Shown here piece after piece: positions 1,442 through 49,400 of a stretch of DNA of 64,000 nucleotides. The first letter of the stretch is position 1. Each line of letters begins with the position of its first letter. The notes beneath the pieces were generated by a model. That model made no database searches. It was not told where the DNA came from and worked only from the letters and a program-made list of their open reading frames with translations. The stretch spans positions 14,992,576-15,056,575 of the forward strand of contig CM049309.1 in the NCBI GenBank assembly GCA_026874595.1, in the 5' to 3' direction. Made by a program: the position numbers and the translations under genes. This DNA comes from Sipunculus nudus. Lineage: Eukaryota > Annelida > Sipuncula > Golfingiida > Sipunculidae.

Positions 1442-4400
1442 CTGAAAATTTGGGGTTGACAGTGTCAGAAATACTATGCTTTTGTTGAGATCTATAATTT
1501 TCAGTCACGTACAAGGGTTTTTCCCTGCAGCTGATGTCAATGCCAAGACAGTGCTCTTATCATTGAAGTGAAAGTAGCTTTTTAACAAATCACATAACAT
1601 AAAAGTTTTTTTGTGGAAAAATAAATAGAAAAATGTTTTTCTCTCAGGATTTGGGGTAAATTTTTGCAAAATCTATATTAATAATTTTGTATAGACATGT
1701 GTGTTATATGATCATATAATGAGATCTGGAATATGTTTGCCTGACCTGATATTAGCACCTGTATTTCTAATAAGATTGCATACATGGAAAAAACTAGATT
1801 TTAGAGATTACCAATCATCATATGTAATGGTACATACCTTTGTTCTTGAGAAGATCTGCATGCTTGCATGACTTTATGTTGTTCTTGAAAGAAAGCCTGG
1901 AAAAGTATAAAATTATCACTAATATCTCATCATTAGGAAGCTTTATGCAAATATTCACTGAAGCAAGACATGTCCTGGAAAAATTAAATTTGCTGTGACT
2001 TCCATTGTTGATTCAAAACCTAAGCAGAACTGCCACTGAATGGAAATAAGAACTGAACCATATCTGAATAGTTTATTGTATAATAAAAGACAAATCGTGA
2101 GGAAAAATATTACACTGCATATGGTGTGTCATGCCATAATAAGAATATCAAAACAAGTATTAACTTTACAATAAATCAATTAGAAGTGTTGAATAGCAAG
2201 AATACCAGGGTTAAAGATTAATTTTATTAAAGCGAATTTCCAATGATTGTTATGTGTAACAGCCAATGTATTTTGTGGAAACTGGGACTATGTGAATAGA
2301 AAAGCATAAGTTATCTGATCTCAGTGACAATACTGTGAGGTGAACCCAGATTATGCCATATATAGATAGATCTGATAGTGGTAAACTAACAAATAAATCT
2401 CAAGGATATATCAACCAGGTATGGACCATAGGGAAGTATAGTATTTTATACTGCATACAGAAAAACACAATTACCAGAGTCTTATCTTCTGCTTCCTTCA
2501 TGTGGTTCACTTCTTTCTCTAGTTCCCTCATCTCACAGACAAGCAGACCTTGAAAGTCATCTAAGATGTTCTGCCTGTAAAATTAAGAAGACAATACCTA
2601 ATGTCACAGACCTTTTTCTTAAGTTTATTACTTTGGAGTGAATGGGTGAATGTAGTTGGCGATGAATGTAACTGTTTAACAATTATTTTTTAATCTTGTA
2701 AATTCTTTAATATTAAATAAATACAATACCTTAAACCTTTCAGAAAATATATCATGATTACAACATGAAACTAGAATACGGGTAGTCGACAAGCGATTAC
2801 GTGTATCCGCCAAAATCAGAGAAGGACGGGTGAAGTGAGGCATAGATTGAATGGCAAGGGGATATAGAGTTACATGTGTTAAATATTAGAATGGATCTCG
2901 GCCACATAAACATGATTGTAGGTGGCGCCACATGTTATTTGAACGAGAAACTATCCAAGATATATACACATGCAATATTTCATGTGGAAAAGTCAAACCA
3001 CTGCAGAGATATGAGTTATTTTATCCCACAGCAGACAAACAGATGGACGCTGTGCAAACATGGTTGCAGGTGGCGCCACCTTTTGTTGTGTATGTTATAA
3101 AGCTATCCCAGGGCTACATTTGTGTAAAATTTTTTTCCGGATCGGTCAAACGGTTCCCGAGATATGAGCTTGGATGTCTGCAGCGTTAACGTGAATGTAG
3201 GTGGCGCCACCTGTCATAAAATCAAGAAAGCTATCAAGGATGAATATGCATGCCAAATTTTAGGTGAATTAGTCAAACCACTGCACAGATATGAGTGATT
3301 TTAACCACAGGCAGATGAACAAATGGACACTGTGCAAACATGGTAGCAGGTGGCGCCATCTTTTGTTGTGTATGTTATAAAGCTATCCCAGGGTTACATT
3401 TGTGTAAAATTTTTTCAGGATCGGTCAAACGGTTCCTGAGATATATGGGTTTATGTGTGGAGCGTTAATGTGAATGTAGGTGGTGCCACCTGTCATAAAA
3501 TCAAGAAAGCTATCTAGGATGTATATGCATGCCGATTTTTAGGTGAATTAGTCAAACCACTGCAGAGATATGAGTGATTTTAACCCCAGGCAGATGAACA
3601 AATGGACACCGTGCAAACATGGTTGCAGGTGGCGCCACCTTTTGTTGTGTATGTTATAAAGCTATCCCAGGGCTACATTTGTGTAAAAAAATTTTCCGGA
3701 TCGGTCAAACGGTTCCCGAGATATATGGGTTTATGTGTGGAGCGTTAATGTGAATGTAGGTGGCGCCACCTGTCATAAAATTGAGAAAGCTATCTAGGAT
3801 GTATATGCATGCTGAATTTTAGGTGAATCAGTCAAACCACTGCAGAGATATGAGTGATTTTAACCCCAGGCAGATGAACAGATGGACACTGTGCAAACAT
3901 GGTTGCAGGTGGCGCCACCTTTTGTTGTGTATGTTATAAAGCTATCCCAGGGCTACATTTGTGTAAAATTTTTTTCCGGATCGGTCAAACGGTTCCCGAG
4001 ATATATGGGTTTATGTGTGTAAACAGACGCACAAACGGACGCTGGGCAGAGACGAAAGGTCAGAGGTCAAGGTCACTTGGTTAGGCACCAGTTCACATGT
4101 GACCCGATAATTTGTGTAAGTTTCGGAAAAATCTGTCCAGTAGTCTCAGAGGAGTTCTCCGGAAACGAACGCAGCGGCGGCGGCGGCGGCGGAACCCGGT
4201 CAAAAACATAGTATCCGCAAAACTTCGTTTTGGCGGATACAATTATAGGAAGTTAGGTGATGATATTATTGTAATCATTCATAAGTACAATAATGAATGA
4301 GCTATTTATGTACTGTAAATGCTTGAAAGCTACACCAACCTAACTGTGTTCTGTTTGGTCCACATGTCATTGATTTGCCTCTGGGTTGCTTTAGCTGTCC

Positions 4401-46400: not shown

Positions 46401-49400
46401 CCACCAGACTATATCCATGCAAAAAATCATGGTGATCACTGCATTAGTTGTTCAGATAACTGAGCTTTTGTATCGAATTTTCCATTATTCATGGGGGGTA
46501 CTTCAGAGCCCCATAGCTCGAAGAATATGGGTAACAGAGACCTAATTTCAGGTTTCCAAGGAGATTTTTTATGAACCTCCCAGGATGTCAAGTTACAAGA
46601 TTCTAGGTCTAGCAGTTACAGTTTGTGCCCTGTTAACGGACGGATGGCCGGACCGCCAGATGGCCGGACGGACGATGGACAAAGAGTGATCGCTATTGCT
46701 CAGATGACTTACAGTCAGCTGAGCTACTAAAATGCACAGACATTTCATCATAAAGCCTACCTCCAGTCTGATGCTAAATAAATACTTCTGCAAGAGAATC
46801 ATCTGGAACATTTTAATGGCAAAGTTTGCCAGCAGAATCTCCTTCACTGCAAGTAAAATTAAAGCATGTAAAAAGTATGGTATTTGTGCAATATAAATGT
46901 AATGCCTGCACACTCAAACACTGATTACAGTATAGAGATTAAAGACTCCTTAATGCTTACATAATCTCATCAGTTTTTCCATAAAAATTTATGATCTGAG
47001 TTATCAGAATGTCCAGGTATATTAAATAACATATTTCCTAAGGTTGTCAGTTCTAATGATTTTAAATCAACAAATACTGATATCATCATTTTTATAACTG
47101 TTTAGCTGTATAATCAACAATATAATTTAAGTATTCAATTAAATGTAGACAATGGCAATATTCTCATATAGATTATACAAAGTCAAAATGATAAAGCTTT
47201 ATTCACTAAAAAACAGTTAAAGGTGCCCATTCACCTACCTTGTGAAAAAGAATTTATGTGATTTTTGGCTTCCTCTTGTATATATTAATGATCTTAGGGT
47301 ATTTTTAGTTTTAAAGTTCTTTAACTCCTTCCTGAAGGATGTATGAACTTGTTTATCAACATGTTTGTAAACACAGCAATGTTGACAAATGGGAAAAACA
47401 TGTAACCTAAGGTGGTAGGTTAAATATATGCTGAGGTAGAAAGGTAACTTGTTGCAAAGCACCACTTGCTGCCAGATGCCTTTGTTGAGTTCGGGCCCCT
47501 CCCCCATATTATAAGCACATTGATTTAAACAAAACAAGCAGCCTGTGAGCGGTGATATCCACATTTTCTGGCCTATTTTTAATAGAAAGCTCCAAGGGAT
47601 TACCTTTAGTTTGCAAAGGTCACATATAGGTGATTGGGTCCCTTTAAGAGGAATGTAGAAAAAAAATACAATAAAAATACTATGTGCAAATGAATGCTAA
47701 ACCAAATGTGAATTAAGACAGTCTAATCAATATTATGCTATTCACCTGCAGCATTCCGATCAGCTATGTTCTGAAAAATATTAAATCTGATGGAATATAT
47801 ATATATATATACATATATATATATATATATATATATATATATATATATATATATATATATATATATATATATATATATATATATATATATATATATATAT
47901 AAATGTTAGTAAACTTGAGCATGATCAAAATTATAAAATGTAATACTTCAGCCACTTTGCATTAACTTGTAATTTTTTATAATATATCTTTTACAAAAAC
48001 TAAAATAAAAGTTTAAAGTCTGTTACAAGTGACTTAAGGATATACATACTGTGATCAGGTCAAAGAGATCTTCCAGAAAGTGTTCAGCTGTGTCACTACT
48101 TTTCCCATACAGGCATTCACTTACAAAAGACAAGCAATCTGAAATGTGTTAAAATAACAATTCTGTTCACCAAGAATTATTTACAGAAAATATATCTATA
48201 TTTAACAATAGCTGACAAAAATACTTATATTTTTATACAGTATAACTGTAAAATATCTCTTATATTAGGTGTACTGATCACAATCAAATTTATTCAGTCT
48301 CTACATAAAAAGTTGTTGACCTACATACAGGGTTTTTTATCATTGTACCTGCAGTTCCATTTACAGTACAAAATCATGAATAAAAGAATGAACTCAAAAC
48401 TGAATTTACTGTGAACTCATTAAGCTGGTGGAGGCATTAACTGTGAAATAAATCAAAATGCTATAATTTAAATAAAACAATATCCTAATAAATTACTCAC
48501 TCAATTAATATATTAACATGATCATTTTAATACTTATCATGACTGTTAGTCCACTGTTGCAGGCAAGCTCCAAAGTTGGTGCATCCAGTTCTGTGCCCAA
48601 CTGTTGCAACAAGCTTAGTATAACCCAGGCTTTGTCTGCTTTCATTGACTCATCCCCAGGCTGCATGAGGGCCTACAGATATATAAGTATTGTGTAAGGT
48701 ACAAGTAGCATTGGACAGATACAACCAGAGATGTGTAAACCAGTTAACTGCATGACCCTGAAGAAATGGGTGCATTGCATGCCACATCTTAAATACTCTC
48801 AAGCTATCCTTGATCCTGATCGATAATCATTTGGTGTATATATATTATTCAAATATTGCAACAATAAGGTATCAGCCATAGACTTATGGGTATGTTGCTT
48901 ACACTAATTTTTTCAGCCTACCAGTAATTTAAACCCTGCCCTGTACTGAACTTCCCAAATTATATTTGTTGATAGCCCTGTGACACATTATACTATATGT
49001 ACTATGTATTGTATACTTAGATACTTTGTATACTTGGATCTTTTTTATTTCTTGTGTTGTTTCACACATGTGGAACACTTAATTCTTCTACATTTTAATA
49101 TAATACTGAGACTACAGCCTAAGCACAAATTTGTGGTACAATTTGAATCTTGAAAGTGAAGGCCTTGATGCCAGAAGAAAGCCTGGTAGAAACATTAAAG
49201 GGACATAATCAGGATCATTATTATGCCTATTCTTTCACACTTTCAGTTCAGTTTTGTTTTTACAAAGGTTTCCAAGCAGAACCATCCCAGCACACAGTGT
49301 CATTTCCGCGCAAACCACTGTTTAACACCTTGTTATGACTGTGCTTGTTGGTAAACACAGTCCACGTGTGTCTGTTTACCATAACAACTTAGGCCGCGTG

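Follow-up and report, generated by a model that had tools for sequence, protein, structure and literature searches.

What are the three repeat families that recur, with a common layout and a shared palindrome, along 64,000 nucleotides of the genome of Sipunculus nudus? This stretch, hereafter the window, is C4:14992576-15056575 of an assembly of 1.4265 Gb and 153 contigs, the scope of all whole-genome counts below, and a contiguous 200-kb sample, C1:120001-320000 (the C1 sample), was analysed beside it. Families 1, 2 and 3 (F1, F2 and F3) are very probably HINEs, non-autonomous elements that rely for their mobility on proteins from Helentron-type rolling-circle transposons, because their structure, ends, empty sites and TT target point that way and Helentron-type coding elements are present in the genome. 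An earlier note on this DNA, made from the sequence alone, had proposed modular non-autonomous elements of the pearl/HINE kind, and the anatomy, ends, empty sites, TT target and coding Helentrons described below all agree with it.

In every family a motif at the low-coordinate end is complementary to a hairpin at the high-coordinate end. The published HINE order, as given in the available parts of PMC7492417 and PMC4067079, is a 5' subterminal inverted repeat (subTIR) with an inverted repeat (IR), a microsatellite, central repeats, a 3' subTIR and a 3' palindrome, and the window elements show this order when read on the minus strand. What the earlier note had seen correctly but called a 3' hairpin is therefore the 5' module, its 5' and 3' being reversed relative to the published convention; the canonical HINE orientation is the window minus strand, and 5' and 3' are stated accordingly throughout. 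The F1 subTIR, TTTTGGCGGATACA, is exact on the 3' side in two of three copies and its complement is found at the 5' end in all three, and the F2 and F3 subTIRs are likewise matched at both ends, with mismatches. When folded as DNA, the 5' modules gave z scores of -6.7 (F1), -6.6 (F2) and -2.1 (F3), indicating that the 5' subTIR and IR can pair. A microsatellite and central tandem repeats sit between the end modules, with the microsatellite alone in one F3 copy. As had been noticed, families 1 and 2 share a CGG-rich stretch near CATAGTAT and a CTAG terminus; CATAGTAT itself was observed nine times in the window against 3.6 expected, six of them at element ends. The 3' terminus is CTAG in F1 and F2 and CTTG in F3, and a host TT follows it directly in 8/9 copies, the exception being a lone F3 end at 294. 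The claim that the families differ at their ends holds for F3, whose ends resemble those of neither other family, and for the 3' ends of F1 and F2, which have no detectable relation (99/500 shuffles reach the score), but not for the F1 and F2 5' ends, which are related (0/500 shuffles); one copy per family was compared in each case.

The empty-site check that had been proposed was run on the window and the C1 sample, where 32 elements were paired by a simple rule from 106 ends. The joined flanks of 13 of these matched uninterrupted DNA, and 8/12 inspected empty sites close up to within two bases of where the ends had been placed, with no duplication of the target site. The family 1 copy at 17796..18983, for example, has a clean empty site at a paralogous place of the C1 sample (85.5% identity); one clean site sits in a minisatellite, where spanning matches arise more easily. 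The flanks of the 32 elements represent distinct insertion sites, bar two same-register similarities on one side. Hairpins lying outside the mobile unit were not seen among the inspected sites: the hairpins belong to the mobile unit. Across the whole genome, the F1 5' hairpin has 2411 forward and 2408 reverse copies and the F3 5' hairpin 10,550 and 10,870 copies by strand, against reversed controls of 0 for both. When the 5' 200 bp of the window F1 copy at 2771..4242 was used as query, 26 of 40 scored matches (from 1540 candidates) were 100% identical after rounding, the copy itself included; given 25 other near-identical copies, family 1 has therefore moved recently.

The genome also contains proteins of the expected kind, with at least 143 matches to Helitron_like_N and none in 14 control genomes. 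A copy on contig C11, scanned as two pieces with ~2 kb between them left out, carries DUF6570, OTU, STPRs, Helitron_like_N and Exo_endo_phos above curated cut-offs, and REP_ORF2-G2P and helicase matches below them. The combination of OTU, Helitron_like_N and an endonuclease therefore fits a coding Helentron. Coding Helentrons on C4 and C8 (L074 and L076) have an array of their own 3' of the open reading frame (ORF), with a 319-bp period in L076, and its sequence is unrelated to that of the palindrome units.

Several observations weigh against this reading. The search for an autonomous partner, likewise proposed in the earlier note, yielded coding elements of the right type but no coding partner with F1-F3 ends in the flanks of the three copies checked (C11, C4 and C8), which are without the palindrome within two mismatches and give a sole end match at E 0.5-0.9. 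The 3' palindrome is clear by energy in F2 only (z -3.18, against 0.27 in F1 and -0.86 in F3); by eye it is visible in F2 and F3 and imperfect in F1. Four of the 12 inspected empty sites are untidy, with gaps or mismatches at the junction. Finally, the protein-family scan of the window (Pfam, E 0.1), which gave no match, covered ten ORFs, all of them outside the elements.

Read on the minus strand, such an element consists of a 5' subTIR with a pairing inverted copy, a short CGG, ACGG or CCGG microsatellite, an array of units of probably common origin (absent in some copies), a 3' subTIR, a candidate palindrome and CTAG or CTTG, followed by the host TT. A Helentron Rep/helicase would recognise the ends and peel off one strand, which may then integrate at T-rich sites, and the length of the array would change through slippage or unequal exchange. 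GGTGGCGCCACC is the common core of the units.

What, then, is this core? GGTGGCGCCACC is a 12-bp palindrome with 111,729 occurrences in the genome, against 14 for the reversed control, and the window holds 38 matches to it with at most one mismatch, where chance predicts 0.01. It had been reported in every unit; among units detected in the window and C1 sample with models built without the palindrome, it is present within three mismatches in 75/79 but exact in only 30/79, and the changes concentrate at the central CpG. It is the consensus in the unit types F1a, F1b and F2, and in F3 too except for the CpG. At the non-CpG positions of the window and C1 units (22/23 used for F1a, 23/23 for F1b, 18/18 for F3 and 14/15 for F2), none of the 135 other 12-bp windows is as conserved as the palindrome in F1a, F1b or F3, and in F2 all but nine of the 135 are less conserved. 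Because the window units had been picked by the palindrome, the test was repeated on C1 units only, none of them dropped (13 for F1a, 13 for F1b, 9 for F2 and 7 for F3). Windows as conserved as the palindrome then numbered 8/135 in F1a, 0/135 in F1b, 96/135 in F2 and 17/135 in F3, an unevenness of constraint that also counts against the main reading given above. Constraint on the palindrome is supported in F1b and suggested in F1a and F3; in F2 it is not supported by the C1-only units over 135 windows.

Two explanations of the palindrome have to be weighed. It may be functionless, a surviving relic of an ancestral unit whose copy number simply follows the number of elements, and we give this close to an even chance. 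The free decay of the central CpG is in its favour, as are the C1-only results, with no extra conservation in F2 and little in F3. However, the palindrome remains the consensus in F1a, F1b, F2 and F3 (bar the CpG) while the flanks are mostly 57-73% identical between families where aligned, and no other window is equally conserved in F1b. Alternatively, its most likely role would be to offer a dimeric DNA-binding protein a symmetric site in double-stranded DNA, a tentative reading that we give somewhat less than an even chance. A double-stranded site is preferred because the single-stranded palindrome folds no better than shuffles: a hairpin at the unit palindrome was rejected as a candidate at z -0.54, with 61/200 shuffles folding equally well. 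A search of literature full text with the 12-mer returned only a chitinase paper, which is weak evidence of novelty since figures and supplements are uncovered. Present at more than 110,000 places, in units of elements whose ends are unrelated, the 12-bp palindrome can concretely be proposed as either an ancestral core or a binding site that the elements share.

The arrays around the palindrome bear on how the families are related. Tandem periods of about 270-280, 326 and 338-340 bp were found in the window where the earlier note had placed its arrays of 280-340 bp units, although the "280-bp unit" of family 1 turned out to be a dimer of diverged units of ~130 and 149 bp with one palindrome each. 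Unit consensus sequences were compared by register-fixed alignment with the palindrome excluded and scored against shuffles. The pairs F1a-F1b (z 9.2), F1a-F2x_a (8.6), F1b-F2x_b (8.5) and F2-F3 (5.1) beat the shuffles, followed by F1b-F2 (4.1), F3-F2x_b (3.6), F1a-F2 (3.4) and F1a-F3 (2.5), and F1b-F3 (1.6) and F3-F2x_a (0.8) did not stand out; of the pairs with a further unit type, F4, only F1b-F4 clearly does (3.8). On these alignments, the array units of families 1-3 appear to share a common origin despite the unrelated F3 ends.

Such sharing could also arise if HINE families actively traded array units by recombining at the palindrome, which we regard as very unlikely. Unit flanks are indeed related across unrelated ends, and the complete family 2 element at 24267..25984 has a composite array of two F2 units and six family 1-related units, whose b-type members cluster (support 0.909) with F1b and with three units of no assigned family, between family 2 ends. 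However, when 48 window units were placed in a tree, F1a (10 units, support 0.892), F1b (10, 0.976), F2 (6, 0.957) and F3 (12, 0.993) each form one clade, which led us to reject recent exchange between families, and the identity between F1 and F2x unit consensus sequences is just 59-73%. Since the window units cluster by family, the modularity, though real, looks old; the exchange of array units that had been suggested would belong to the past, as the related flanks and the composite array indicate.

The remaining alternatives fare worse. It is exceedingly unlikely that the families are canonical Helitrons rather than Helentron-type elements: CTAG in F1 and F2 fits a CTRR-3' end, but the 5' ends start with TTGTATC or TAGCTC and not with the 5'-TC that accompanies CTRR-3' in canonical termini, F3 terminates in CTTG, and the subTIRs at either end, like the 5' hairpin and the insertion next to TT, are as in HINEs. 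Ordinary dispersed satellites, that is, local tandem arrays with end motifs as neighbours by chance, deserve next to no credence, for although the tandem units have a satellite-like length and palindrome units without recognised ends lie at 18992-19250 and 20708, the empty sites are precise, thousands of end modules contrast with reversed controls of 0, and family 3 copies occur without any array.

The elements of the window all lie on the minus strand. Complete family 1 HINEs are found at 2771..4242, with both ends and an array whose palindrome units span 2921-3919, at 17796..18983 and, recognised by its ends, at 31471..32628. Besides the composite element, family 2 has a complete copy at 15536..17156 with four palindrome units. 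Family 3 is complete at 42177..44134 (five units) and at 9615..11536, the latter lacking both the 340-bp array and a palindrome within three mismatches, though an ACGG microsatellite occupies 11430-11490; a diverged copy at 33800..34826 has two units and a 5' terminus placed by extending a partial match, and at 45025..46726 there is a 5' end with an array, for which no 3' end was found. End matches further reveal a lone family 3 3' end at 294..342 and a lone 5' end at 29325..29377 (E 1.4e-10). Three palindrome units without recognised ends lie at 18992..19250, beside a family 1 copy, and cluster with F1b and F2x_b units. The palindrome at 20708..20719, given without strand, belongs to unit type F4, also seen at positions 20935 and 85312 of the C1 sample. 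The copies at 9615-11536, 294-342 and 29325-29377 and the extra unit type at 20708 add to those of the earlier note.

The common strand of these elements raises a second question. In the window, 19/19 resolved ends are on the minus strand, and in the C1 sample 84 of 87 are minus and three plus. Among the first 100 places listed for the F3 hairpin on C1 (C1:96416-3177604 covered), 55/56 are minus between 96 kb and 1.15 Mb and 8/8 are plus between 1.25 and 1.47 Mb, with shorter strand blocks beyond, up to 3.18 Mb. These strand runs are fewer than in 20,000/20,000 shuffles, and at 1.2-3.2 Mb alone they are fewer than in all shuffles but one. The strand of F1 copies equals that of the nearest F3 copy in 12/14 cases on C1 at 0-3.2 Mb, on both sides of the switch at ~1.2 Mb, and repeats with at least five distant copies in the C1 sample are mostly on one strand. 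Family 1 copies at 6.5-20.4 Mb of C1 look random, with 38 runs against 41.0 expected and 8/14 neighbours within 30 kb agreeing. A mixed distance table over 100 family 1 places and the balanced genome-wide strand counts of the F1 and F3 5' hairpins weigh against a general rule. We regard the co-orientation tracts as real within the stretches analysed. Repeats with two or more copies in the 264 kb under comparison cover 77% of the C1 sample.

Several causes were considered. Duplicated stretches were rejected, as the flanks of the 32 paired elements are mostly distinct insertion sites, and an imbalance of A-tracts and T-tracts outside paired elements is too weak in C1 (1860 vs 1408) and absent in the window (494 vs 500). 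A minus-strand ORF at 41672-41923 has a match to synaptonemal complex protein 2 (SYCP2; 5iwz_A, E 4.3e-12), so a minus-strand gene passes through this position; because the elements share its strand, transcription or selection could explain the co-orientation in the window. In the C1 sample, a Pfam scan of 40 of the 134 non-repeat ORFs detected two fragments of reverse transcriptase plus three other, weak matches, and no non-Helentron family that could serve as an orientation control was found. The available part of PMC4778049 lists replication among the ways in which single strands could become available to Helitrons, and that of PMC5371812 links the orientation of IS608 to replication; such IS200/IS605-type elements resemble the present case in local co-orientation only, being bacterial and of a different element type. 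It is conceivable, though we think it unlikely, that the locus sets the insertion strand: single-stranded rolling-circle intermediates would join fork-exposed DNA, orientation would reflect germline fork direction in some regions, and block boundaries would mark origins or termini. A separate part of this conjecture is that one protein, used by HINE families with unrelated ends, docks at the palindrome. Of ten 3-kb chromosome-end pieces on which the replication reading makes a prediction for telomeres, four contain element DNA; three fit, and the left end of C2 contradicts it. Our literature searches listed no report of such co-orientation tracts for Helitrons. Should the tracts be confirmed and a tie to replication established, they would inform the question of where Helitron-type transposons take single-stranded DNA from, which the available part of PMC4778049 (Helraiser) leaves open.

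Beyond these families, the window gave no Rfam match at gathering scores and no tRNA with ARAGORN. It holds a minisatellite at 55841-56716 (40-bp period, ~22 copies, 95% match) and, at 26186-26513, two tandem copies of a 147-bp repeat with a GGTCAAGGTCA-like stretch that belongs to none of families 1-3. Viral-contig scans returned 26 stretches for the F1 end and 14 for the extended palindrome, which were set aside as chance since the full F1 hairpin matched once, poorly.

This animal genome is heavily loaded with HINEs; because one family was active recently and both ends and empty sites are defined, it offers good material for tracking down the coding partner and for experiments on the movement of array-bearing Helentrons. 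Two points deserve a specialist's attention: the palindrome core that families with unrelated ends share, and the co-orientation of insertions in some regions. Among known systems, all compared here from the available parts of the papers, DINE-1/HINE and Helentrons (PMC4067079) share with our families subTIRs, internal repeats, a TT target and probably the 3' palindrome and include, as here, a coding element with Rep/helicase and endonuclease; they differ in that our families share a unit palindrome at high copy number and no coding element is matched to them by ends. Pearl and DTC84 of bivalves (PMC7492417, PMC5139131) are similar, by description only, in their short repeat arrays within a HINE-like frame and, for DTC84, in a conserved palindrome near the repeat junction (PMC5139131). 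A further close system is Cg_HINE of Crassostrea gigas, among the pearl/Cg_HINE elements of oysters (Vojvoda Zeljko et al. 2020, PMC7492417). The suggestion of an undescribed system is not borne out at the level of class, since central-repeat HINEs, including ones with two arrays, are published for oyster. Cg_HINE and our families both have a 5' subTIR with an IR, a microsatellite, central repeats of satellite-like length, a 3' subTIR, probably with a palindrome, insertion at TT without target-site duplication, two array types in some elements and no identified coding partner. In Cg_HINE, however, a repeat cluster is tied to a specific flank pair and related flanks may hold unrelated repeats. 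Going by that description, families 2 and 3 are set apart by one palindrome per ~330-bp unit, and the present elements show the opposite arrangement, in which unrelated flanks (F3 versus F1 and F2) hold related repeats with one palindrome.

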